The translations under genes were made by a program, and so were the position numbers. A model generated the notes under the pieces. That model searched no databases. It was given only the letters and a program-made list of their open reading frames with translations, and had not been told where the DNA came from. From Alphaproteobacteria bacterium (GTDB taxonomy: Bacteria; Pseudomonadota; Alphaproteobacteria; Rickettsiales; SXRF01), in NCBI GenBank assembly GCA_013288305.1, contig JABDCD010000013.1, positions 1 to 33,082 on the forward strand: DNA of 33,082 nt, written 5' to 3'. Positions 15,001 to 31,930 of the stretch are shown here, one piece after another; the first letter of the stretch is position 1; each line of letters starts with the position of its first letter.

Positions 15001-16350
15001 TTATCCCTTCTGCTTCTTCAGCGTTTCCGCAATTAAAAATGCCAGTTCCAGCGCTTGGCTGGCATTGAGGCGGGGGTCGCAGTGGGTGTGGTAACGGTCG
15101 CTCAAATTCAACTCCGAAATGGCCTGCGCGCCGCCCAGGCATTCGGTGACGTCCTGACCGGTCATTTCGAAATGCACGCCGCCGGCGAAGGTGCCCTCGG
15201 CCTTGTGGATGGCGAAGAACTGGCGCACTTCGGCCAGGATGTCGGTGAATTTGCGCGTTTTGTAGCCGTTGGGCGACTTGATGGTGTTGCCGTGCATCGG
15301 GTCGCATGACCAGACGACGGTTTTGCCGGAATTTTTGACGGCGCGGATCAGTGGCGGCAGCAGTTCGCCGACCCGGGTAGCGCCCATGCGCGAAATCAAT
15401 GTCAGCCGCCCGGCTTCGTTATCGGGGTTCAAAAGGTCGATCAGTTTCAACAGCCCGTCCGCTGTCATGCTCGGGCCGACCTTGACGGCGATGGGGTTGG
15501 CGATGCCGCGCATGAATTCGACATGCGCCTCGCCGGGATCGCGCGTGCGGTCGCCGATCCACAGCATGTGCGCCGAGGCGGCATAATACTTGCCGTCGGT
15601 TTTATCGAGGCGGGTCAGCGCCGCTTCGTAATTGAGCAGCAGCGCTTCGTGCGAGGTGAAAAAGCTGGCCTCGGAGAATTGCTCGACCTCGTCGATGGGC
15701 AGGCGGCAGGCCCGGATGAAGCCGACGCATTCGTTGATGCGCGCGATCAAATCCTCGAAGCGCTTACCCTGCGCCGAGCTTTGCGCGAATTCCATGTTCC
15801 AGCGGTTGATGCGGGTGAGCGACGCATAGCCGCCGCGCGCCAACGTGCGCAGGTAATTGATGGTGGCGGCACCCTGGTAATAGGCGCGCAGTAGGCGCTC
15901 GGGGTCGGGCGCGCGGCTGCCGGCGTCGAAATCCATGGCGTTGACCATGTCGCCGCGATAGGCCGGCAGTTCCAGCTCGCCTTTTTTCTCGGTATTGTCG
16001 GAACGCGGCTTGGCAAACTGCCCGGCGATGCGCCCGACCTTGACCACCGGGCAGGACGCGCCGTACATCAGCGCCATCGTCATTTGTAATAATACGCGGA
16101 AAAAGCGCCGCAGATTATCCTCGGAAAATTCGGCAAAGCTCTCGGCGCAATCACCGCCCTGCAACAGGAAGGCTTTTCCTGCCGCCACGTCCGCCAGCTC
16201 GCGCTTGAGCGCCCGCGATTCGTCCGGCGAGGCCAGCGGCGGTAGGGTGGAAAGCGTTTTTTCCACACCCTGCAACTGCCCGGTGTCAGCATAGTCCGGC
16301 TGCTGCTTGATGGGGAGTTTCCGCCAGCTATCGGTGGTCCAGGATTGCAT
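15001..16350 (-). CDS. aroG: Class II 3-deoxy-7-phosphoheptulonate (DAHP) synthase
   Basis: This enzyme condenses phosphoenolpyruvate and erythrose 4-phosphate to DAHP, the first step of the shikimate pathway. At 449 residues it has the usual length of the plant/mycobacterial class II type. The conserved metal and substrate residues are visible: Cys in [11 protein letters not shown], His in CDPMHGNT, Glu in GGVHFEMTG and Asp in HTHCDPRLN, plus [11 protein letters not shown] and WIGDRTRDP. The start [10 protein letters not shown] is typical of the family, although only a weak GGA precedes it. A gene for prephenate dehydratase, a later step toward phenylalanine, lies 2 kb away, separated by an unrelated gene. 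Confidence 0.96.
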
Positions 16351-16465: not shown

Positions 16466-18361
16466 TTACATAGCAGGCGTGGATTTGGCTTTAGACTGCG
16501 CTCTCAGCTTCGCCATAGCGTCTGCTTCCCGTATATTCGCCTCTATGTTAGACCGTATAGCTTCCAGCCAATGCCTGCCGCGCTCGGTAGATTGTGGACC
16601 GATCATTTCGTTCATAATATCATGTATATTAGATCTACACGTTGTATAGTCCATGCCCTCCTTATCCCTATCCAGGTAGTGCCACCTCAAAGACAATGGC
16701 TCGCAAGGCGCCACATCGTCTCCTCCGGCGGCTGCAGGCAAACAATAGGCCATAATATAAACCCCGCCGGGATGCCACTTTTTCATTTGCATATTATTTA
16801 AATCTTTAGCTTCTGTTGACAGCATTTTTTCCAAAGCTGCCGCATCTATAGATTTATCGCGATGCGCCTGGATATAAAAGTTAGAGTGAAGTTCTTCCAA
16901 CTTATTCAGGCAGCTACAGAATTTTTTAAAACTGCTTATTGCAGAATCCAGCTCCCGCTCGACATTCCCATTGGCTGTTTTTTCCGGCAGATAGAAATAG
17001 GATTGGTCGGCATAGTGGTGAAACCCTTCCAACAAGGCTTTTTTCTGGATAACATCGCTTTTCTGAGTAGCCGTAGTGTCACTGCTTTGAACAACGTTAT
17101 CTTCCAAGAGAATATTGCCTCCCTGGACAAGGCGCTCTACCTCAATTGCGCGGGCCAACTTTTGGAGGGGAGAAAAATAGGCTGCCGCCGAAGGCGCCGC
17201 ATAAAATTGCTCGCGCATGACAACATGCATGGCGGCAGCAATAGTCAAAAATTGCATTATGTCCTCATTTGAGCCAAACCCCTCCCGAAAACCGTAATAT
17301 AGCCGTGCAAGGCGTTGGTTAAAATCCAGCAGTGAGGTGGCGAGCTTAGCCAGTTTAACGCGTTTTTTGGGAGATACTTCTCCCGCATCCATCAGTTCAT
17401 CAATCGATTCCACAAGAAAGAGAAATTTCTCGCAGAAATCATGCACCGGGTTCACTCGCTTAATGGAATGGGTACCGATGCGTATGGGCTCACAATTATC
17501 GTCATCCTTATCGTCCGCGCCCGGGTTTCTGCGCACCGGATCAAGCGTCGCATTAACTGGAATTTCCAACGGTGGAGGTTGCTGGAAACGTGTTTCCATA
17601 AATAGCGCGAGAGGTATCCGGTCTTCCGTCGCCATAAAGGTGTCTTTTGCAAATATATGGAAGTCTGGCTGCGTTTCCTTTACAGCTTGTGTATAATCGG
17701 CATTAATCGCCTCAACCACTTCCTTCCGGAATTTTCCGTTCTCCACAAGGCCATCAATGACTTGCTGGCTAACAGGATCAAGCGGCATATCGAGCGAGTC
17801 TAGCAATGCCCTTAAATTCTGTGGCGTAACCGATAGATTCAAAACCGCCGTCATCTGCTTGTGCCTGATATTGCTCGAATGCACCTTGAAATCATCGGTA
17901 TAGCCAATATCAGGAGGCGCGCCTAACCCGGCAATTACATATGGCAATTCAATAGGCGTGGTGTTCCACTGGGCAGTAAATGATTGAATCTGTTTGGCTA
18001 TCTCACCAGAATCGACTTTCGCATCGCCTCGATAGCACATCAGATCGATATCCTGAGGATATTTGTGCATCAATACATAGTTTTCTGTTGTACCCGTTTC
18101 GGTTTCTTCGATTGTTTCGCTGCCGTGTCGCACCAGGCGATCCAGCAAAGACGGCGGAAGATTCCTACTTAAATGCCGAAACAACGCTTGCCCCAGCAAC
18201 ATTGTCAGCACCGATACCGTACGGTTGTTAGCTGCTTTCACACCCATGGCCGCAAAGTAAAACTGCCGCGGAGCTTTATTCAACCTGCGTTTGGAACGAT
18301 CAGAGTTTACTTCCGAGGTTGAAACTGGCTCTGACTTGCGTTCCCCTGGATTTGATGTCAT
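16466..18361 (-). CDS. Unknown 631-residue protein of lower GC
   Basis: No family is recognised. The product is soluble-looking with no signal peptide or transmembrane helix. Its parts are a basic, Ser-rich N-terminus (1-35), a mixed alpha/beta segment (about 35-190) with PQDIDLMCYRGD, and a long mostly helical C-terminal half with several aromatic-rich helices (EGFHHYADQSYFYLPE, KWHPGGVYIMAYCLP). The DIDL word recalls the paired acidic residues of DNA-polymerase-beta-type nucleotidyltransferases, but the preceding Gly-Ser motif is not convincing. I prefer ATG 18361, with AAGG 9 bases upstream, over TTG 18382. Base composition is visibly more AT-rich than its neighbours, and the gene sits between aroG and the divergent pheA, suggesting later insertion. 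The function is not inferred. Confidence 0.75.
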   Translation of the reverse strand: MTSNPGERKSEPVSTSEVNSDRSKRRLNKAPRQFYFAAMGVKAANNRTVSVLTMLLGQALFRHLSRNLPPSLLDRLVRHGSETIEETETGTTENYVLMHKYPQDIDLMCYRGDAKVDSGEIAKQIQSFTAQWNTTPIELPYVIAGLGAPPDIGYTDDFKVHSSNIRHKQMTAVLNLSVTPQNLRALLDSLDMPLDPVSQQVIDGLVENGKFRKEVVEAINADYTQAVKETQPDFHIFAKDTFMATEDRIPLALFMETRFQQPPPLEIPVNATLDPVRRNPGADDKDDDNCEPIRIGTHSIKRVNPVHDFCEKFLFLVESIDELMDAGEVSPKKRVKLAKLATSLLDFNQRLARLYYGFREGFGSNEDIMQFLTIAAAMHVVMREQFYAAPSAAAYFSPLQKLARAIEVERLVQGGNILLEDNVVQSSDTTATQKSDVIQKKALLEGFHHYADQSYFYLPEKTANGNVERELDSAISSFKKFCSCLNKLEELHSNFYIQAHRDKSIDAAALEKMLSTEAKDLNNMQMKKWHPGGVYIMAYCLPAAAGGDDVAPCEPLSLRWHYLDRDKEGMDYTTCRSNIHDIMNEMIGPQSTERGRHWLEAIRSNIEANIREADAMAKLRAQSKAKSTPAM

Positions 18362-18420
18362 AATCGATGGCCTTCGCCTCAAATATATTTACACTTGTTA
18401 ATATACATAAGTAATAAATC

Positions 18421-19287
18421 ATGTCCAGCGCAACCACAACCGACCCCGAAAATACCATTGCCTTCATGGGCGTGGAAGGGGCCAATGCCGATTTGGCTTG
18501 CCGCCAGGCTTGTCCGTATATGCATACGCTGGGAGTGGCGTCGTTCGAGGATGTGTTTCAGGCGGTGGCGGAAGGGCGCGCGGCGCTGGGGATGATTCCG
18601 ATCGAGAATTCGCAGGCGGGGCGTGTCGCCGAGATTCACCCTTTATTACCCAAAACCAATCTGCATATCGTCGGCGAATATTTCCAGCATATCGAGCATT
18701 GTTTGCTGGCGCCCAAGGGCGCGACGCTGGCCACCGTTAAGGATGTCTATTCGCATCCGCAGGGATTGCTGCAATGCCGCGAGCATTTACGCGAATTGAA
18801 GCTGACCACCCATACCTATTCCAACACGGCGCAGGCCGCCGCCGATGTCGCACAGTGGAACGATAAAACCAAGGCCGCCGTCGCCTCGCCGCTGGCGGGG
18901 GAGTTGTATGGGCTGGCCGTGCTCAAGGAGCATATGCAGGATTCGGACGATAACGTGACGGTGTTCATCATCATCGCCCGCGAGCCGGTCGATCCCGAGC
19001 CGTCCGAAAGTGCCCGCGTGCTGACGACGCTGCTTTATACCGTGCGCAACCTGCCGGCGGCGCTGTATAAATCGCTGGGCGGGTTCGCCACCAACGGCGT
19101 CAATATCCTGAAGCTCGAAAGCTATATCCCCCCCGGCGCGGCACGCGACTCAGCGCAGTTTTTCCTCACCTTCGAGGGCCACCCGCGCCAGCCGAACGTT
19201 CAACATGCGCTGGAGGAATTGAGTTTCTTCTGCAAAAAAGTGACGGTGCTGGGGGTTTATCCGGCGGATAAGGCGAGATTTTCGTGA
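18421..19287 (+). CDS. pheA: Prephenate dehydratase with ACT domain
   Basis: This enzyme converts prephenate to phenylpyruvate in phenylalanine synthesis. At 288 residues it has the size of the mono-functional enzyme with no chorismate mutase part. The catalytic half (about 10-185) shows FMGVEGANAD, IPIENSQAGRV and SHPQGLLQCR, and the C-terminal ACT domain (about 200-280) binds phenylalanine for feedback control (NLPAALYKSLGGFATNGVNI, LESYIP). The usual T-R-F signature reads DDNVTVF here: the catalytic Thr (T180) is kept but the next Arg is Val (V181). I see no good ribosome binding site before ATG 18421. The gene is divergent from the unknown 631-residue gene across 59 bases. Confidence 0.94.
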   Translation: MSSATTTDPENTIAFMGVEGANADLACRQACPYMHTLGVASFEDVFQAVAEGRAALGMIPIENSQAGRVAEIHPLLPKTNLHIVGEYFQHIEHCLLAPKGATLATVKDVYSHPQGLLQCREHLRELKLTTHTYSNTAQAAADVAQWNDKTKAAVASPLAGELYGLAVLKEHMQDSDDNVTVFIIIAREPVDPEPSESARVLTTLLYTVRNLPAALYKSLGGFATNGVNILKLESYIPPGAARDSAQFFLTFEGHPRQPNVQHALEELSFFCKKVTVLGVYPADKARFS

Positions 19288-21626: not shown

Positions 21627-22358
21627 ATGAAAACCATGCAAAGCCAGACCGATCCCGCGGACGAGGATTACGCCGCCATCGCCGAGAGCGTCAAGAGCGG
21701 CGAATATTTCCGCAAGGCGCGCGCCATGTACGATCTTTCCGTGCACGACCCGATGGCCGAGCGCTACCTGTATCTCTTCATCACGGCGTTGTCGCTGCTT
21801 TCCTTCATCATCGCTTTTAGCGCCATGCAGTCGCTATATCCGCTGCAGACGCCGGTGCCTTTCATTTACAGCACGAACAACATCGCCGACGACATTCCGC
21901 ATATCCAGTCGCTGCTGGCGCGCAAGGGCGAGAATCCAAGCGCGGCGCTGCTGCGCTTCCTGGTGCAGAATTACGTGACGCTGCACGAGGAATACAACAT
22001 CGATACCTTCGACCGCGACGTCAGCGGCGTCGAAAGCCAGAGCGCGCCTGCGGTCGCGGCCGAATTCCGGCAGGCCGTCGATCCGCGCAATCCCGACAGC
22101 CCCGTGGCGCTTTACCAGCGGCATTCCAAGCGCAGGATTACCATCGTCTCGTCCCGGCGCATCGGCGAGGCGGATGCGATGGAGGTGACGTACGAAGCAG
22201 CGGTGGAAGGCAAAGGCGAGGGTAAAAAATCGCGCTGGCAGGCAAATATCGCTTTCAACTATAGCGGCCTTGCGTTAGATGAGAAAACAGGAAAAGTGAA
22301 CCCGGTGAGTTTTGTCGTAACCCAGTATCGCAGCAAGCGGCTTCAGGACATCAAATGA
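21627..22358 (+). CDS. virB8: VirB8-like type IV secretion inner-membrane protein
   Basis: VirB8 is a bitopic inner-membrane protein of the type IV secretion channel. It has 243 residues: a cytoplasmic N-terminus with the family motif EYFRKARAMYDLSVHDP, one membrane helix (about 47-70), and a periplasmic domain containing FLVQNYVTLHEEYN and a C-terminal VSFVVTQYRSKRL that closes the NTF2-like fold. It overlaps virB9 by 4 bases (ATGA). No ribosome binding site is obvious before ATG 21627, and an in-frame ATG follows at 21636. No virB4, virB10, virB11 or virD4 lies in the window, so the rest of the machine must be elsewhere or lost. Confidence 0.86.
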   Translation: MKTMQSQTDPADEDYAAIAESVKSGEYFRKARAMYDLSVHDPMAERYLYLFITALSLLSFIIAFSAMQSLYPLQTPVPFIYSTNNIADDIPHIQSLLARKGENPSAALLRFLVQNYVTLHEEYNIDTFDRDVSGVESQSAPAVAAEFRQAVDPRNPDSPVALYQRHSKRRITIVSSRRIGEADAMEVTYEAAVEGKGEGKKSRWQANIAFNYSGLALDEKTGKVNPVSFVVTQYRSKRLQDIK

Positions 22359-23113
22359 AAACGATCTATCTACTGGCCATAGCATGTGCCGCCCTGCTTC
22401 CCGCCGCCGCCCACGCCACGCGCGAATCCCGCCCGATACAGGTCGACCACCGCGTGCGCATCGTCATGTACCAACCCGACGCCGTCTATAAATTCACCGG
22501 CCATTACCGCTACGAATCGTCGATCGAATTCGAGGAAGGCGAGGAAATCAAAACCATCTCCATGGGCGATTCCACCGCCTGGATGATGAATCCCTCCGGC
22601 AACCGGCTGTTTTTAAAGCCGGTCGAGCAGGACGCTACCACCAACATGATGCTGATCACCAACAAACGCGTTTACCTGTTTGAACTGCACGCCCGCGAGA
22701 CCGACGACATCGAGGACAAGGACATGATTTTCATCATGCGCTTCGTCTATCCCGAAGACAACCAGACCCTGACGGTGAGCAATTATCTCGATGCGGTGCC
22801 CGATCCCGATAGCGAGCCGGGCAAATATAATTTCAACTATACCATTTCCGGCACCGACCTCATCGCGCCCCTGCGCATCTTCGACGACGGCCAGTTCACC
22901 TACTTCCAGTTCAAGAATAAAAACGCCGACCTGCCCGCCTTCTTCATGGTGGATGCCCACGGCAACGAATCGCTGATCAATTACCGCACGCGCGGCGACT
23001 ACATCGTCGTCGAGCGCGTGGCCAAGCAATTCACCCTGCGGCACGGTGCCGACATCGCCTGCGTGTTCAACGAGGGGAAACCGGCTGCCATCGTAGCGCC
23101 GCCGGCAAAATAA
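22355..23113 (+). CDS. virB9: VirB9-like type IV secretion outer-membrane complex protein
   Basis: VirB9 belongs to the periplasmic/outer-membrane core of type IV secretion systems. This protein of 252 residues has a clear signal peptide (1-21, cleavage after AHA). The N-terminal beta domain includes VYKFTGHYRYESSIEF and STAWMMNPSGNRLFLKP, and LITNKRVYLFEL is typical of VirB9/CagX. The C-terminal domain (about 150-235; FNYTISG, PLRIFDDGQFTYFQF, VDAHGNESLINYRTRGDYIVVERVAKQFTLR) is the VirB7/VirB10-contact module. It starts inside the virB8 stop (ATGA), and its stop TAA shares a base with the gpsA ATG. Confidence 0.92.
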   Translation: MKTIYLLAIACAALLPAAAHATRESRPIQVDHRVRIVMYQPDAVYKFTGHYRYESSIEFEEGEEIKTISMGDSTAWMMNPSGNRLFLKPVEQDATTNMMLITNKRVYLFELHARETDDIEDKDMIFIMRFVYPEDNQTLTVSNYLDAVPDPDSEPGKYNFNYTISGTDLIAPLRIFDDGQFTYFQFKNKNADLPAFFMVDAHGNESLINYRTRGDYIVVERVAKQFTLRHGADIACVFNEGKPAAIVAPPAK

Positions 23114-24179: not shown

Positions 24180-24296
24180 TGATGGCGACATATATAGGGA
24201 AAAATGTTAGATTATAGATATATAGGCAAAAATTACCTATTGCATTTATAAAAATTGCTAATAAAGGATTAATATCATCATTAGCAAGTAACGATT

Positions 24297-25025
24297 ATGT
24301 CAAAGCCAGACTTACATAGCGACAGCAATTCCACGCAGAATTTTCTCGAGGGCCTGCAAGATTCCATCGTGCGCCGCCTGTCGAGAACGCAATTATCGCG
24401 CGACGAGCCGATCGTCTATGAATTCACCAACGATCGCGCACTGTTGCACCAGTATTACCACATACGCGAAATCATGTACCGCAAGACCGCTAATGCCCAT
24501 AGGATGGGCGATGAAGACGTCTATGATAAACTCGGCCATATTCTCATCGCGCGGCGCGGCAAGCTGTGCATCGGCGGCTGTCGCCTGATTATCCGCGAAG
24601 CCGACGAGGATTTCATGCTTCCCATGGAAAGCTCGGATTTCAAATTACGCAACGTATTCCCGAATTTGCCGCTCAAAAAGTTGCGTCATGGCGAAATTTC
24701 GCGGTTTGCTATTATGGATGATGACGATGATAAAATGGAAATCATGCTTGCGATAAGCCAGTTAATTATTGAAAAATGCATTAGCTCCGACTTAGGATAC
24801 GTATTTTTTAAGTCCTATCTTTCCATGTCTCGCAACTGGCGGAAAATCATCTATACGCATTGCGGGCAAAAAAATGTCAGGATCTGCACGGAAATCAAGG
24901 TGCCGGAAAATCCGATGCTTCCCGAAATCACATGGTATATTACCGAAGTGCGTTTGCCAGCGGCTGAGGTGACACCCCTGTATGACAATATGCTTGCCCG
25001 CCCGATTGCATCGCTGGTGCATTGA
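24297..25025 (+). CDS. LuxI/FeeM-type N-acyl (amino acid/homoserine lactone) synthase-like acyltransferase
   Basis: This soluble 242-residue protein has the GNAT-like fold of autoinducer synthases and N-acyl amino acid synthases. Order of motifs: R57 in HIREIMY, acidic GDEDVYD (72-77), GGCRLI with R96, FPNLP (121-125) and the hallmark EISRFAIM (E133, S135, R136, F137). These match the conserved R...E.D.(F/Y)D...RL...E(x)SRF set of LuxI and FeeM families. LuxI proteins join acyl-ACP to S-adenosylmethionine; FeeM-type enzymes join an acyl chain to an amino acid. No LuxR regulator is adjacent, which favours the FeeM or exosortase-associated side. It converges on the E1-nitroreductase gene, 20 bases apart. 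The substrate is unknown. Confidence 0.78.
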   Translation: MSKPDLHSDSNSTQNFLEGLQDSIVRRLSRTQLSRDEPIVYEFTNDRALLHQYYHIREIMYRKTANAHRMGDEDVYDKLGHILIARRGKLCIGGCRLIIREADEDFMLPMESSDFKLRNVFPNLPLKKLRHGEISRFAIMDDDDDKMEIMLAISQLIIEKCISSDLGYVFFKSYLSMSRNWRKIIYTHCGQKNVRICTEIKVPENPMLPEITWYITEVRLPAAEVTPLYDNMLARPIASLVH

Positions 25026-25045
25026 CAGTCAAAATTGGTGCGAGG

Positions 25046-27010
25046 TCAAATCAACATCTCGTTGAGCGGTTTTCTTAAAGAACGAGAATCCAAAATTCCA
25101 GCCGGGATGCCAACGCGCCCCATGAAGACGATATCGTTGATATATTTTTCGTACAGTTGAGCGAAATTCGCCGCGAGTTTTTGTGCCTTTTTATTCAATA
25201 TCTCCTCTTTGCTGAATGCTATCCGGCGTGAGCCCAGATAGCCAAAAACCAATGCTGCGTAAGATGGCTGGAGGGCAAGACCGAGCTTTGTGATGGTAAG
25301 CCAGAAGCGCTGGATCGCGCCGCCCATGGTAAGCAGTGCATCCGTATCGTTTTTATTCAGCGGTTTTTTCGATGCCAGGGTAAAATGCGCGGCAGCGCAG
25401 AGGCCCGGGACGATATCCATTTCCAGGCGCGGCATGAGTGTCCCGGCTAAGTATGTATTGAGAAAATCTATCCGCTTCCAGCTTTTCAATGCCCAGCGCA
25501 TCATGCGGAGCGTCACCGGCGATAGCGGCAAGGTGCCCACCGGAATCCGGTCGCTGCTGAACCGGTTGTCCCAATCCAATATGTCTTGAATTTCCGCGTA
25601 GGATTTATGTTCCCGGAGCCTTATATCGCTGGCCCGGGCATTGAGCCAGGCGCATTTCAGTTTCTCGCGAAATCCAAGGTGCCAGGAAACGGACAGCGCG
25701 TTACCCACGGAGCGCTCGAGTTCTTCTTTCTGGCTTAAGGTCAAGGGGGTGGTTTTATATTTTTTTCGGTTGACCGAGCGGATGGAAATATAGGGGAAAA
25801 GGGGATCTTTATGCACCGAATCGCTTGGGGTGAGGTTGACATCTATATGCAAGATGTTGTCCGTTTCCTGGAATTGATATGCGGTTGCCATTCTCTCCCA
25901 TGATGCCGCAATCCTTATATTTTCAAGCATCATACCTGCCGTCAGCACGTTGGGTAGGCCATCCCGAATTTCAAACAACGAAGGAGTACTGGTGGCATAT
26001 CTCCCGGCATGAACCGTAAAACGATGGTCATCCTTGATGTCAAATCGCCAGGGCTGGCGATTATCGCCGCTGGGCGTCCACAGGGCGGCGTCGATGATGC
26101 GTTCTATGGGTTTTTCTTTCGGCTTGGGCATGAGCGGTCTGGGTTGATCCGCCAGTTTTTTCAGCAACCGGCTGGTGGCCGTTTTTCTGAGCCGCATCAG
26201 CGGATTCCTCATTCCCATCCTGAGTTTGCCGCGCACGAATCTGTTAAGGTAAGGGTCGAACTGCTGGTAATAAGGCGCGCTGTAAACCTTGCCGCGGCCG
26301 AGCAGGATTTTCATGGTTTCGGTGACGGCCACCGCAGATGAGATCTGGCAGGCCATGGGAGTGGTCACGCCACGCTTCGACTTCAGGTTTATCAGGCTGG
26401 GATCGGCAATATAACCCCAATGCAGAAATTTCGGCGCTATGCCGATGAAAAGATTGAGTTGTTGTTCCTGAGGCGACAGCCCGTTGAACGCGAAATAGTC
26501 ATCGAACGTCATTTTGCCCGGCATGAAGGTGATATAAGCGCTGCCGGTGCCGAACGGCCCGGCCGTGATCGCCGGAATGCCGTTAGCGGCGCAATGCTTG
26601 AACACCAGTCTTTTGGCATCGATGGCGAACGCATCGATCCCGTCGATAAAGACATCAACGCCTTCTAAAAACGCATCGATATTGCTTTCATCGATATTGC
26701 CGAAAATGCCTATATCCAGTTCCGGATTGATGTCCCTGGCCATGCCGGCCATCACATCGGCCTTGTTCTTGCCGATGGTACTCATCATCGCGCCGGCCTG
26801 ACGATTGAAATTGCCTAGTTCAAACACATCGCTGTCGGCGATATGGAACACCCCGACGCCGAGCCGGACGAGAGTAAGCAAATGACTGCCGCCGACACCA
26901 CCCGCTCCCGCTATCGCCACTCTTTTGCCGCGCAGTTGCTGCAATTCAAGCTCGGTCAACCACCCCAGAGAGCGGCTAAAAGCTTCTTCGAAGTGGAATG
27001 TTCCGATCAT
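25046..27010 (-). CDS. E1-like (ThiF) adenylyltransferase fused to nitroreductase
   Basis: This fusion protein has 654 residues. The N-terminal ~260 residues form a ThiF/E1-type ATP-binding Rossmann domain: VAIAGAGGVGGSHLL (31-45), acidic ADSDVFELGNFNRQ (58-71) and the E1 signature VDVFIDGIDAF. A basic linker (about 262-300) follows. The C-terminal half is a nitroreductase-type FMN oxidoreductase beginning ERIIDAALWTPSGDNRQPWRF and ending with YEKYINDIVFMGRVGIPAG, an FMN-enzyme tail. No CxxC zinc site or obvious catalytic Cys is seen in the E1 part. The architecture is that of the Rv1355c-type E1-nitroreductase proteins, thought to act in small-molecule or peptide modification. The reaction is not established. 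Confidence 0.88.
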   Translation of the reverse strand: MIGTFHFEEAFSRSLGWLTELELQQLRGKRVAIAGAGGVGGSHLLTLVRLGVGVFHIADSDVFELGNFNRQAGAMMSTIGKNKADVMAGMARDINPELDIGIFGNIDESNIDAFLEGVDVFIDGIDAFAIDAKRLVFKHCAANGIPAITAGPFGTGSAYITFMPGKMTFDDYFAFNGLSPQEQQLNLFIGIAPKFLHWGYIADPSLINLKSKRGVTTPMACQISSAVAVTETMKILLGRGKVYSAPYYQQFDPYLNRFVRGKLRMGMRNPLMRLRKTATSRLLKKLADQPRPLMPKPKEKPIERIIDAALWTPSGDNRQPWRFDIKDDHRFTVHAGRYATSTPSLFEIRDGLPNVLTAGMMLENIRIAASWERMATAYQFQETDNILHIDVNLTPSDSVHKDPLFPYISIRSVNRKKYKTTPLTLSQKEELERSVGNALSVSWHLGFREKLKCAWLNARASDIRLREHKSYAEIQDILDWDNRFSSDRIPVGTLPLSPVTLRMMRWALKSWKRIDFLNTYLAGTLMPRLEMDIVPGLCAAAHFTLASKKPLNKNDTDALLTMGGAIQRFWLTITKLGLALQPSYAALVFGYLGSRRIAFSKEEILNKKAQKLAANFAQLYEKYINDIVFMGRVGIPAGILDSRSLRKPLNEMLI

Positions 27011-27125
27011 ACTGCATAATGTAGGATTGGCTAATAAGACACGGAAAGTTATAGCAGAGTTTTGTCAGGGCGCAATCAGGATTCAGGCTCGTTTTGTGCC
27101 ATTCTGGCAACATCCAGGTGATTAT

Positions 27126-27183
27126 TTGTTCAACGCTAAAAACTTAATCTAATTTTAATTAAATACGATTAATTTCTAATCGT
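27126..27183 (+). promoter_or_regulatory. Promoter region of the TonB receptor operon with operator-like palindrome and CtrA-like box
   Basis: A possible promoter is TTGTTC (27126-27131), 18 bases, then TAATTT (27150-27155). A TTAA-N7-TTAA box lies at 27144-27158 over the presumed -10. A perfect 7-bp inverted repeat, ACGATTA (27165-27171) and TAATCGT (27177-27183), lies just downstream where a repressor could bind. All are motif readings in AT-rich DNA. The rest of the 201-base divergent gap (27011-27211) shows nothing else clear. Confidence 0.45.
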
Positions 27184-27211
27184 TATATAAAACCATAATG
27201 GGGAATCAGCC

Positions 27212-29167
27212 ATGGCATACGGGCGGACATTGACGGCGTTGACAGGTCTTAGCATAGTGTTGTTTGCAGCCGGAATGGCACAGGCTGACGATCTTTCTCC
27301 TCAGGCCGTACTAAATATGTCGCTTCAGGACTTGACCAACGTGGAGGTAACCTCCGTATCCAAAAAAGTGGAGAAAGCTAACGAAGCTGCGGCCGCCATT
27401 TTTGTTATTACGCAGGAAGATATCAGGCGTTCGGGCGCTACCAACATTCCCGAAGCATTGCGTATGGCTCCGGGAATTAATGTGGCACAGGCCGGAGCGC
27501 ATGGTTGGGCAATTAACTTTGGATCTAATAGTCAGTTTGCCAACAAATTCCTCGTGCTGATCGATGGGCGGACGGTGTATTCGCCGCTTTTTTCCGGCAC
27601 ATATTGGGAGTTGCAGGATACGCTACTCAATGATATCGACCGCATCGAGGTGATTCGCGGGCCGGGCGCCACGCAATGGGGCGCCAATGCCGTCAACGGC
27701 GTCATCAATATCATCACGAAAAATGCCAAGGATACGCAAGGCGGCTTGGTGACGGCCAGTGCCGGTAACATGATTAAATCCGATGATGGCACCCGATATG
27801 GCGTCAAGATCGGCGATGACAGCTATGCGCGCCTCTATGCCAAATATAATGACGACGCCCCGGAATATAACGTTGGCACCGGCCGCAGCGGCGACGGCTG
27901 GCATAAAAACCAGGGCGGGTTCCGCAGCGATTCCAGACTGACCGACCAGGATACCCTGACCGTTCAGGGCGATCTCTATAAATCGATCGAGAGCACTAAC
28001 CATATTTACCCGAGTCTTGCCAGTCCTCCTGCTGTCATGACTCCGGATGACGTCAATGCGTCGGGCGCCAACGTATTGGCGCGCTGGACGAGAAACATAA
28101 GTCCGCAATCCTCCACCACGACGCAATTGTATGTGGACAATACCCAATATAAAACCGGTTTTTACAGCTACAATACCCTGACCAGCGACTTCGATTTCCA
28201 GCATACCTGGACCGGCTGGGAGCGTAACGAAATCATCTGGGGAGCCGGCTATCGCCTGGTGGTGGATCATACCAGCCCGACCACCTTGTTCAGCCTGGCG
28301 CCCACCGAGCGCAACACAAGCTTGTATAGCGCTTTTTTACAGGACAAATATACGCTGCATCCGGACGATCTCTTCCTTACGCTGGGCTCAAAATTCGAGC
28401 ATAACGCTTTTTCCGGATTCGAAGTGCAACCCACCGCCCGGCTATCATGGCTGATATCGGACACCCAGATGGCCTGGGGTTCCGTATCGCGCGCCGTGCA
28501 TACGCCCGACCGCTTTACGTCCGACGGGCAGTTGACGTTGGCGGTTTTGCCTGGCCCTATCCCGATAACGAACGTGAGCAATCCGCGTTTGGATTCCGAA
28601 GAATTGGTCGCCTATGAACTGGGTTATCGTGTGCAGCCAACCAAAACTGTCTCGCTGGACATTGCGACTTTTTATAATGATTACAGCAAGCTCTTTCTCT
28701 CTGATTTTGGCAACAACTTCCCGGCTGAGTCTCCGACTAATAACTATGCGGCGCATTCGCTGGGTTATGAAATCACCGCCAAAGTTGATGCGATGAAAAA
28801 CTGGCAGCTGGCGGGATCATACGGCTATCTCGATTTGCATTTCAACAACCAGATTACCGGCGTCCTCTATTCCGCCATAGGCCAGCAGCCGAAAAACACC
28901 TTCAATGTCCGCTCAACCTACCTATTCCCCTATAATATAGAAATGACTAACTCACTGTATTACGTGAATGGTTTCAGTGTTTCCGACATCCCCGGCTATT
29001 ACCGCTTCGATACCAAGCTTTCCTATGAAGTCATGAAAGGCGTGGAAGTAAGCCTCGTCGGCCAGAATCTGTTGACGGCGTATCATCGGGAATTCGGACC
29101 CTTCCTCTATCAGGCTCCCGTGGAAATCGGCCGCAGCGTCTACGGCAACATCACATGGAAGTTTTAG
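27212..29167 (+). CDS. TonB-dependent outer-membrane receptor
   Basis: This protein of 651 residues begins with a signal peptide (cleavage near AQA-DD). A plug domain (about 45-170) follows, with IFVITQEDIRRSGATNIPEALRMAPGI, FLVLIDGRTVYSPLFSG and DIDRIEVIRGPGATQWG..VNGVINIITK, then a beta-barrel ending in the terminal aromatic (WKF). No clear TonB box is visible before the plug. Such receptors import siderophores, cobalamin, sugars or other ligands. The direct neighbours, YfiR-like and kinase genes on the same strand with 3- and 10-base gaps, suggest that it feeds or senses a signal rather than acting as a plain transporter. The ligand is unknown. Confidence 0.93.
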   Translation: MAYGRTLTALTGLSIVLFAAGMAQADDLSPQAVLNMSLQDLTNVEVTSVSKKVEKANEAAAAIFVITQEDIRRSGATNIPEALRMAPGINVAQAGAHGWAINFGSNSQFANKFLVLIDGRTVYSPLFSGTYWELQDTLLNDIDRIEVIRGPGATQWGANAVNGVINIITKNAKDTQGGLVTASAGNMIKSDDGTRYGVKIGDDSYARLYAKYNDDAPEYNVGTGRSGDGWHKNQGGFRSDSRLTDQDTLTVQGDLYKSIESTNHIYPSLASPPAVMTPDDVNASGANVLARWTRNISPQSSTTTQLYVDNTQYKTGFYSYNTLTSDFDFQHTWTGWERNEIIWGAGYRLVVDHTSPTTLFSLAPTERNTSLYSAFLQDKYTLHPDDLFLTLGSKFEHNAFSGFEVQPTARLSWLISDTQMAWGSVSRAVHTPDRFTSDGQLTLAVLPGPIPITNVSNPRLDSEELVAYELGYRVQPTKTVSLDIATFYNDYSKLFLSDFGNNFPAESPTNNYAAHSLGYEITAKVDAMKNWQLAGSYGYLDLHFNNQITGVLYSAIGQQPKNTFNVRSTYLFPYNIEMTNSLYYVNGFSVSDIPGYYRFDTKLSYEVMKGVEVSLVGQNLLTAYHREFGPFLYQAPVEIGRSVYGNITWKF

Positions 29168-29170
29168 TGC

Positions 29171-29722
29171 GTGCTGAAACATATGTTACGATATGGGCTT
29201 GCCGCCTTTGCTGCCTGCGCCCTGGCGCTGGCTCCGCCTGGCGCACGCGCCGACGATAATAAAGAATACCTGGTCAAAGCCGCCTTCATCTATAATTTTG
29301 TCAAGTTCGTCGAATGGCCCGGTGCCCTGGCCATCGTCAAGCACTCCAATATCGACATCTGCGTCGTCGGCGACAGCCCGTTAAGCGACACCGGCAGCGT
29401 TTTCAAAGCTGCGTCGACGGCAAAGCTCACCCTGTCGCTGGTGGATGAAAAAAACTGGCGCAACGCCTCCCAGCATTGCCACATTCTTTTTATCAGCGAT
29501 TCCGAAGCCGGAAAACTGGGCGAGATACTGGCGAGCTTGAAAAACCAGCCGGTCCTGACCGTCAGCGACATGGATAATTTCGCGGAAAAAGGCGGCATGA
29601 TCGGATTTGTCGTCAGCGACAACAAGATCAAGCTGGTCGTGAATACGAAATCGGTCGCCGCCGCCGGGATGCGCGTAGACGCGCAGCTGCTGGAAATCGC
29701 GCTTAAAGTGATAGACAGATAG
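29171..29722 (+). CDS. YfiR-like periplasmic protein (DUF4154)
   Basis: This secreted periplasmic protein of 183 residues has a signal peptide (cleavage near ARA-DD) and then the DUF4154 hallmark YLVKAAFIYNFVKFVEWP. Further family pattern is ICVVGDSPL, CHILFISDSE, VLTVSDMDNFAEKGGMIGFV and IKLVVNTKSVAAAGMRVDAQLLEIA. In Pseudomonas, YfiR binds the periplasmic CHASE8 domain of the cyclase YfiN and keeps it off. GTG 29171 has GGAAG 9 bases upstream; an in-frame ATG follows at 29183. It lies 3 bases after the TonB receptor and 10 bases before a CHASE8-type kinase. Confidence 0.91.
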   Translation: MLKHMLRYGLAAFAACALALAPPGARADDNKEYLVKAAFIYNFVKFVEWPGALAIVKHSNIDICVVGDSPLSDTGSVFKAASTAKLTLSLVDEKNWRNASQHCHILFISDSEAGKLGEILASLKNQPVLTVSDMDNFAEKGGMIGFVVSDNKIKLVVNTKSVAAAGMRVDAQLLEIALKVIDR

Positions 29723-29732
29723 GGCGCGGCGT

Positions 29733-31307
29733 ATGATGGGATTGCTCAAAAACACTTCGATCAAGCAGCGGCTGACCTCCATCATCATGTCGATCAGCTT
29801 CATCTCGGTCGTGCTTACGACGCTGGCCATTTCAGTGTTCGGCTATTACAACCTGAAGGACAATATCAAGAGTGATCTCAGCGGCTCGGCGTCGCTGGTC
29901 GGCGACCGCAATGCCGCCGCGCTGAAATTCGATTCCTATGATAACGTCGCCACCAATCTCGGCGTCTTAAGCGTGAAGAAGACCATCGTGCAGGCCTGTC
30001 TGTACGACCATAAATCCCTGGCCGGCGACATCATCGATAAAAATGTCGGGCGTTACGTCCGGGCACAGGAAGATAGCAAAAAAGACGATGCCGGAAAAAA
30101 CGACGCGCCGATCCATGATTGCCCGGCCGACCTGACGGAAAATATGGTCATCGGCAAAAACCGCATCGAATTGATGAAGACCATTTTAGACAGCGAGAAC
30201 CAGCCGATCGGCTCGATTTACATCGAATCGACGCTGGATGAAATCGACCAGTATATTCAGGCGCAAACCACCATCGCCCTTACCGTCGCCGTGTTCGCGC
30301 TGGCCATTTCCTATCTGCTGGCGATCAGCCTGCAAAACGCCATATCGCGGCCGATCCTGAGCCTCGCCGATACGGCGCGCCAGGTTTCCAAGCACAAGGA
30401 TTACAGCATCCGCGCCGCGCCGCTGGGCGATGCCGAGAAGGAAGACCGCAACGAACTGGTCATCCTCACCAATTCCTTCAACGACATGTTGACGGAAATC
30501 GGCGCGCGCAACCAGCAACTCAAGCAGCAGAACGTCGAGCTCGAGAAAGCCAGGGATACCGCCGAAAGCGCCAACCGCGCCAAGTCGCACTTCCTGGCCA
30601 ACATCAGCCATGAGCTGCGCACGCCGCTCAACGCCATCATCGGTTTTTCCTCCATCCTGATGAACCAGCTGTTCGGCACGCTGGGCGACCAGAAATACCT
30701 GGAATATGCCCGCGACATCAACGAATCGGGCACCCACCTGCTCGACATCATCAACGACATCCTCGACCTGTCGAAAGCCGAAGCCGGCAAGCTGGCGCTC
30801 GTCTACGAGGAAGTCCACGTCGGCAAAACCGTCAATAAATGCATCACCATCCTTTCCGAGCGCGCCGCCAAGGGCAAGATCGCCATTAGCACCGACGTCC
30901 CGAAAATGCTGCCGCCGCTGATCGCCGACCGCCTGCGCGTCATCCAGATATTGCTCAATATCCTCTCCAACGCCATCAAGTTCACGCAGGAAGGCGGCAA
31001 AGTCCATATCGCGGCACAGACCAGGGAAAGCGGTGGCGAAATGTCGCATTTCGTTATCACCATCCAGGATAGCGGCATCGGCATGAGCAAGGGCGACATC
31101 GACAAGGCCTTCCAGAGTTTCGGGCAGGTCGATAGCGGCCTCAACCGCAAATACGAGGGCACCGGCCTCGGCCTGCCGCTGACCAAGAAACTGATGGAAC
31201 TGCACCACGGCACCATCGGCATCGACAGCGAACCCGGCAAAGGCACGCTGGTGACACTGACCCTCCCGGCACTGCCGCCGGCGGGGGTTGAGTATAAGGC
31301 AGAATAA
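29733..31307 (+). CDS. Membrane histidine kinase with CHASE8-like periplasmic sensor
   Basis: This sensor kinase has 524 residues. Order: TM1 (about 14-37), a ~140-residue periplasmic domain (38-177) with the CHASE8 pattern SASLVGDRNAAALKF, TM2 (178-200), HAMP (201-255), a coiled coil (256-285), HisKA with H293 in [15 protein letters not shown], and ATPase with ILSNAIKFT, DSGIGM and GTGLGLPLTKKL. No receiver domain is attached. The periplasmic domain type is that of YfiN/TpbB, and the gene just upstream encodes a YfiR-like protein, so the two probably interact in the periplasm. The cognate response regulator is not adjacent. The stop codon is directly followed by a palindromic repeat. Confidence 0.91.
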   Translation: MMGLLKNTSIKQRLTSIIMSISFISVVLTTLAISVFGYYNLKDNIKSDLSGSASLVGDRNAAALKFDSYDNVATNLGVLSVKKTIVQACLYDHKSLAGDIIDKNVGRYVRAQEDSKKDDAGKNDAPIHDCPADLTENMVIGKNRIELMKTILDSENQPIGSIYIESTLDEIDQYIQAQTTIALTVAVFALAISYLLAISLQNAISRPILSLADTARQVSKHKDYSIRAAPLGDAEKEDRNELVILTNSFNDMLTEIGARNQQLKQQNVELEKARDTAESANRAKSHFLANISHELRTPLNAIIGFSSILMNQLFGTLGDQKYLEYARDINESGTHLLDIINDILDLSKAEAGKLALVYEEVHVGKTVNKCITILSERAAKGKIAISTDVPKMLPPLIADRLRVIQILLNILSNAIKFTQEGGKVHIAAQTRESGGEMSHFVITIQDSGIGMSKGDIDKAFQSFGQVDSGLNRKYEGTGLGLPLTKKLMELHHGTIGIDSEPGKGTLVTLTLPALPPAGVEYKAE

Positions 31308-31397
31308 CCGTCATTGCGAGAAGCCGTAGGCGACGAAGCAATCCAGTCTTGCAGCGTTCTGGATTGCCGCGATCGCTTCGCTCTCTCGCAATGACGG
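31308..31397. repeat. 90-bp palindromic repeat element (GTCATTGCGAG type)
   Basis: CCGTCATTGCGAG (31308-31320) is the exact reverse complement of 31385-31397, a perfect 13-bp stem. An inner stem is GCAATCCAG (31338-31346) with CTGGATTGC (31359-31367). Palindromes with these same words (CGTCATTGCGAG, GAAGCAATCCAG, CTCGCAATGACG) are scattered in many unrelated bacterial genomes as small non-autonomous elements. This one begins at the first base after the kinase stop codon. No transposase is present. Confidence 0.88.
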
Positions 31398-31471: not shown

Positions 31472-31930
31472 TTGAAACAAATCTACACCGAATCCATCCT
31501 GCTTATCGAGCGCCTACACCGGCGTTTTCTCGACGTGGTGAAAACCGAGCTCGACCGGCTCAAGATCGACGACATCAACAACGTCCAGACGCTGATTCTC
31601 TATAACATCAGCGCCGAGCAGCTGACCATCGGAGAACTCACCAACCGCGGCTATTACCTCGGCTCCAATGTGTCGTACAACGTTAAGAAGCTGGTGGAAA
31701 ACGGCTATTTGATGCAGGAGCGCGCGCCGCACGACAAGCGCTCGACGCGCATCCGCCTGTCGGACAAAGGCCTGCAATTATGCAAGAAAGTCGATGAATT
31801 ATACCAGCGCAACGTCGAGCTGGTGTCGAAGGAAATGGATGCCGCTGCACTCACCACGCTCAACAACACCCTGTCCCAGCTTGAGCGCTTCTGGACCGAT
31901 TATATCAACAATATTTATAAGATTAAATAG
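31472..31930 (+). CDS. ldtR: LdtR-like MarR-family transcriptional regulator
   Basis: This winged-helix regulator has 152 residues. The MarR DNA-binding core is visible (LTIGELTNRGYYLGSNVSYNVKKLVENGYL, then the wing ERAPHDKRSTRIRLSDKG), flanked by dimerisation helices. The RGYYLGSNVSYN..KLVE stretch closely follows LdtR, an alphaproteobacterial regulator of an L,D-transpeptidase gene and of stress tolerance known from Liberibacter and rhizobia. The start is TTG 31472 with GAGG 6 bases upstream. No L,D-transpeptidase gene is adjacent. The promoter region shares a GGTAAGG word with that of the next gene. Confidence 0.84.
   Translation: MKQIYTESILLIERLHRRFLDVVKTELDRLKIDDINNVQTLILYNISAEQLTIGELTNRGYYLGSNVSYNVKKLVENGYLMQERAPHDKRSTRIRLSDKGLQLCKKVDELYQRNVELVSKEMDAAALTTLNNTLSQLERFWTDYINNIYKIK

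Follow-up and report, generated by a model that had tools for sequence, protein, structure and literature searches.

A convergent LuxI/FeeM-fold acyltransferase gene and OxzB-type fusion gene beside a TonB-dependent receptor-YfiR-kinase cassette: a candidate oxazolone-type locus

Introduction

Acyl-oxazolones are formed in bacteria through the combined action of an acyltransferase, a ThiF protein and a flavin-dependent oxidase (PMC10404671, PMC12856293). In Pseudoalteromonas rubra, as related in these two papers, OxzA and OxzB (de Rond et al. 2021, doi 10.1038/s41589-021-00808-4) are encoded by an acyltransferase gene and a ThiF-nitroreductase fusion gene, and both OxzB and the mycobacterial TrzS convert N-acyl amino acids into oxazolones by cyclisation and desaturation. 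TrzS is a ThiF-FDO fusion of Mycobacterium tuberculosis with TrzA as its partner acyltransferase (Rv1356c/Rv1355c), and cyclic-di-GMP genes adjoin the pair (PMC12856293), which is no more than suggestive of signalling for the locus described here. In TyzA/TyzB/TyzC of the same species the ThiF and oxidase activities reside in separate proteins (PMC10404671). Clusters of separate NAS, ThiF and nitroreductase genes in Stieleria, Massilia and Thalassotalea serve the formation of N-acyl dehydrotyrosines, for which the product is an open acid (PMC12479983).

Here we describe a related locus in a 33,082-nucleotide stretch of alphaproteobacterial DNA (the window). A first-pass annotation had suggested that an acyltransferase and an E1-nitroreductase fusion encoded there might together N-acylate, activate (with ATP, at a carboxylate) and oxidise one small molecule. 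This suggestion is well supported and coincides with the scheme published for OxzAB, TyzABC and TrzAS; its companion statement, that the joint role of the two families is undescribed, is wrong in the light of the papers cited above.

Results

The two genes are arranged tail to tail. The acyltransferase (AT) gene (24297-25025, plus strand) encodes a 242-aa N-acyltransferase of the LuxI/FeeM fold that falls in an order-specific clade, as assigned by fold search, alignment and tree. The fusion gene (25046-27010, minus strand) encodes a 654-aa OxzB-type protein comprising a ThiF cyclase and an Acg-type flavin oxidase, as assigned by domain matches, alignment and structure. Both open reading frames and their convergence are as first annotated, with 20 bp between the stop codons. 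A congener (G002) retains this arrangement; its fusion protein has 70% identity and its AT gene is split over two contig ends. The domain and fold matches, the retention of the pair in G002 and the wider co-occurrence reported below argue that both genes are coding and that their linkage is not due to chance. Just upstream of AT, ATATATAGGNAAAAAT occurs twice, 28 bp apart (24190-24233); this 16-nt direct repeat (starting at 24190 and 24218) has no clear counterpart in relatives.

The fusion protein contains a ThiF/E1 domain at residues 7-269 (26204-26992, minus strand; Pfam ThiF at residues 18-260, 8e-40) and an Acg-type domain of the nitroreductase superfamily at residues 298-654 (25049-26119, minus strand; nitroreductase match 7e-6), which bears out the earlier description of a ThiF/E1-nitroreductase fusion. 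The ATP-site residues (GxGGVG at 35-40 with G35/G37/G38/G40, D61, N69-R70-Q71, K83 and D126) show no variation in two alignments. In an alignment of 30 ThiF-FDO fusions that spans their full length, mean column identity is 55% and the oxidase residues, including the motif W311-x-PSGDN-x-Q319, are also invariant; the window protein shares 39-46% full-length identity with the 29 others, and its relatives are in Pseudomonadota. It scores above the cut-off for PRK08223, below that for the Acg family of FMN oxidoreductases (NCBIfam, 1e-20) and far below that for the Rv1355c family (134 bits; cut-off 476). In the predicted structure (mean pLDDT 87) the E1 half resembles ThiF/MoeB with a Z score of about 25, and the C-terminal half (298-654) resembles the Mycobacterium smegmatis Acg homologue 2ymv (Z 26.6, rmsd 3.1, 294 residues). 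The best 50 rows of a Foldseek search with the fusion protein are all of E1 type, and the 2ymv match emerged in a second look.

Sulfur-carrier E1 enzymes such as MoeB have a CxxC zinc site. The ThiF half of the fusion, read from its sequence, has two cysteines within residues 1-290 (C140 and C221) and lacks CxxC; with no carrier recognised beside the gene, identity as a sulfur-carrier E1 (ThiF/MoeB) was rejected. The fold is common to ThiF, MoeB and MccB, and the domain could instead activate a protein or peptide at its C-terminus, in E1-like or MccB-like conjugation or peptide modification, with the oxidase acting on that substrate. This is very improbable, however, as no peptide precursor was recognised near the fusion gene either, the zinc pair is missing, and the fusion groups with the OxzB/PRK08223 type (the OxzB tree being a quick version). 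The invariant D126, R464 and Q581 are plausible counterparts of D217, R540 and Q651 in TrzS, guessed by position; a search of plasmids for an actinobacterial TrzS with which to map these residues gave no match. A gene for an N-acyltransferase of the LuxI/FeeM fold adjoins the fusion gene, as is expected of the OxzB type. By sequence and model, the fusion has the OxzB/TrzS architecture, that is, the known 'oxazolone synthetase' type, and is predicted to form oxazolones.

AT is more distant from its described counterparts. Its AlphaFold model, of moderate confidence (mean pLDDT 70), has FeeM as its first match (2g0b; E 4e-7, TM-score 0.66 by target length), followed by LasI, and BjaI is also among the top matches, in agreement with the LuxI/FeeM likeness first proposed. 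Residues R57, D77, R96, E133, S135 and R136 are invariant in 46 aligned ATs and D74 is nearly so; the conserved R, D, D, R, E and R residues of the LuxI fold family are kept, under what we take to be the equivalence of each AT residue with its LuxI counterpart. The score against FeeM (Pfam PF21926; E 0.019, 15.2 bits) lies below the gathering cut-off of 27. The exosortase-associated acyltransferase model TIGR03694 gives 1e-5 and 25.1 bits, far under its cut-off of 111.95, and a PEP-CTERM/exosortase identity was rejected on this account. Identity to the acyltransferases that usually partner OxzB is 12-23%. A tree built with 95 acyltransferases has a 99/97 branch that parts the ATs of the window's order from 40 OxzA-type and 6 FeeM-type rows; this branch and the low identity exclude AT from the OxzA-type clade. 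Members of the AT clade are present in 51 of the 263 genomes from the window's order and practically nowhere else in the class. Among the AT loci examined, the fusion is present in the window and G002 only.

A further group of genes lies directly to the right of the pair. A 201-bp intergenic region (27011-27211) separates the fusion gene from a divergently oriented gene for a TOL_0244-like TonB-dependent receptor (27212-29167, plus strand; 602.7 bits, cut-off 645), and contains an A+T-rich imperfect inverted repeat (27125-27191) for which an operator search found no clear counterpart in relatives. The receptor gene is followed, on the same strand, by genes for a TOL_0243-like, YfiR-like periplasmic protein (29171-29722; 115.8 bits, cut-off 125), a membrane histidine kinase of the YfiR-associated type (29733-31307; 147.7 bits, cut-off 194) and a MarR-family regulator (31472-31930; Pfam), which is situated 3' of the kinase gene in several relatives too. 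Receptor, YfiR-like protein and kinase thus stand in the gene order of the NCBIfam cassette, each scoring below its cut-off. The first-pass annotation was right that no LuxR is nearby, as Pfam finds none in the 24-33 kb part of the window, but it overlooked the receptor, YfiR-like protein, histidine kinase and MarR regulator. The region between the kinase and MarR genes (31308-31397) has a 39-nt inverted repeat, 74% complementary with a 12-nt spacer, that resembles a dispersed palindromic element. Scans for promoters and terminators found no excess over shuffled sequences.

Across the order, a receptor of the window's type lies within 6 kb of 38 of the 52 AT loci (within 1.5 kb of 34), with a YfiR-like gene at 31 and a window-like kinase at 24. 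Chance would account for about 0.6% per locus, from a receptor density of ~0.4 per Mb in relatives; AT loci are related by descent, such that a binomial figure overstates the significance of the linkage, although many families are involved. The cassette also occurs at other loci without AT, and the window's genome has a second copy (L254; G000:C12:12200-26000) that lacks an acyltransferase. The cassette itself is already known, its three proteins being named in NCBIfam, and its coupling to an acyltransferase was not found described: a literature search found no paper coupling an N-acyl amino acid synthase to a TonB receptor or YfiR.

The oxidative enzyme that adjoins AT or the receptor is variable. 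It is the OxzB-type fusion in the window, a P450 with an FAD oxidase in G001, and a P450 in G011. G002 has P450 and fatty acid desaturase genes 5' of the fusion gene on the same strand (L071:43-2486), and the desaturase open reading frame overlaps the start of that of the fusion. All P450s of the slot type found in the window's family either adjoin the receptor or sit just upstream of the fusion (G001, G002, G008, G011, G012 and G014), and an FAD oxidase homologue adjoins AT in G038. OxzB shares the place beside AT or the receptor with other oxidative tailoring enzymes, and we infer that the enzymes in this slot act on the AT product. A 350-aa ThiF protein in G004 (L226:7523-8575), most like the OxzB/PRK08223 type, although its 158 bits against PRK08223 fall short of the cut-off, is encoded directly before a receptor-YfiR-kinase-MarR cassette that has no AT. 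The ThiF gene beside AT at locus L201 codes for an ordinary MoeB and is not a second oxazolone locus.

Acyltransferases commonly accompany such cyclases elsewhere. Fifteen OxzB/TyzB-type loci outside the window's genus were present in a phylum sample (L072-L086), and 14 have an acyltransferase of the LuxI/FeeM fold within about 6 kb (13 recognised with an HMM built up from the window's AT and one more by Pfam FeeM). When named genomes were then scanned using only the cyclase alignment, 80 OxzB-type loci were obtained; an acyltransferase lies no more than 5 kb away at 57 of them, and some contigs end too soon for a decision. The co-occurrence that the first-pass annotation proposed as a check is thereby confirmed. 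On pDVUL01 of Nitratidesulfovibrio vulgaris (L256:4062-7031), FeeM, ThiF and nitroreductase are joined in one 989-aa protein, PRK14852. The proximity of acyltransferases to cyclase loci and this triple fusion argue that the three activities belong together.

Some observations count against a shared pathway in the window. The genes converge and so do not form one operon, and none of the 60 other OxzB-type loci that include an acyltransferase gene is convergent: at 45 the genes are in tandem with AT leading, at 13 they diverge, and at 2 OxzB leads a tandem pair. AT scores under both family cut-offs, its model is moderately confident, and its low identity to the usual OxzB partners and its occurrence mostly without OxzB suggest that it may have a role of its own. 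The two genes could then be mere neighbours, with AT serving the receptor locus through an acyl amino acid, or another acylated product, of its own, and OxzB inserted beside it and drawing its substrate from elsewhere. The order-specific distribution of AT fits such an arrangement, as does G001, which is 95% complete and has AT (59% identity) with no fusion gene found. We nevertheless consider it quite unlikely, because the pair is kept in G002, the slot in relatives is filled by enzymes of like oxidative type, and OxzB needs an N-acyl amino acid, while no second homologue of AT was found in the window's genome, which is ~55% complete such that the absence of other genes there is uncertain.

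Elsewhere in the window, VirB8- and VirB9-type genes of type IV secretion (21627-23113) are located directly 5' of a glycerol-3-phosphate dehydrogenase gene. A 638-codon open reading frame (16466-18382) with 48% G+C among genes near 60% has no NCBIfam match. Genes for a class II DAHP synthase (15001-16350) and a prephenate dehydratase (18421-19287), both of aromatic amino acid synthesis, lie 5-9 kb away from AT and the fusion gene; their proximity is probably coincidental, although the oxazolone pathway usually acts on aromatic amino acids.

Discussion

AT and the fusion probably constitute an oxazolone-type pathway, in which a lineage-specific locus for an acyl amino acid and a receptor has recruited known chemistry. 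AT, with its observed fold and LuxI-type residues, would take a fatty acyl group from a thioester and attach it to an amino acid. By homology with OxzB and TrzS, the ThiF domain would adenylate the carboxylate of the resulting N-acyl amino acid, which would cyclise to an oxazolone, and the Acg-type domain would desaturate the oxazolone using FMN and O2. The product might be taken up or sensed via the linked TonB-dependent receptor, which is conjecture. To the folds, conserved residues and linkage observed at the locus, this scheme adds substrates, an order of steps and a product that we infer.

The oxazolone could also be transient, with the fusion desaturating the acyl amino acid by way of it and hydrolysis leaving a free acid like the thalassotalic or kyonggic acids or the stieleriacines as the end product. 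Producers of such acids carry NAS, ThiF and nitroreductase genes with no oxazolone seen (PMC12479983), and oxazolones are easily hydrolysed. However, gentle extraction yields oxazolones from the OxzB and TrzS fusions (PMC12856293), and we regard a free acid as an unlikely end product.

The novelty of the proposed oxazolone-type locus lies in an acyltransferase of a separate family that, in the window's order, stands next to a receptor and a sensor kinase, an arrangement that hints at a signal. A more doubtful extension is a synthase-receptor circuit without LuxR, in which a lineage-specific acyl amino acid synthase and an exchangeable oxidative tailoring enzyme (OxzB in the window, a P450 or FAD oxidase in relatives) would make a ligand that the receptor recognises at the outer membrane, relayed via the YfiR-like protein and the kinase. 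With oxazolone genes beside a candidate receptor and signal chain, the locus offers a concrete candidate for a sensing or uptake route for such lipids. The AT-receptor linkage is kept across many genera of one order, and the tailoring enzymes found in one slot provide a set of natural swaps.

Comparison with OxzA/OxzB of P. rubra, as far as PMC10404671 and PMC12856293 describe that system, reveals the same two genes and, in the fusion, the same domain order and fold; the window differs in having an acyltransferase of another clade, convergent genes and an adjoining receptor-YfiR-kinase cassette. TrzA/TrzS likewise combines a ThiF-FDO fusion with a partner acyltransferase, although the window fusion falls well short of the Rv1355c family cut-off. 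TyzA/TyzB/TyzC has the same three activities and, as in the window, an acyltransferase gene on the opposite strand, whereas the ThiF and oxidase parts that are separate there are fused here. The Stieleria, Massilia and Thalassotalea clusters share the three functions, in genes that are not fused. The PRK14852 triple fusion of pDVUL01 has 31% identity to the window fusion over the shared part, but includes a FeeM-type acyltransferase and has PEP-CTERM/XrtA surroundings. Finally, although the window proteins score below the three cut-offs, the TOL_0244 receptor, TOL_0243 YfiR-like protein and YfiR-associated histidine kinase of NCBIfam represent the same three families, encoded in the same order.
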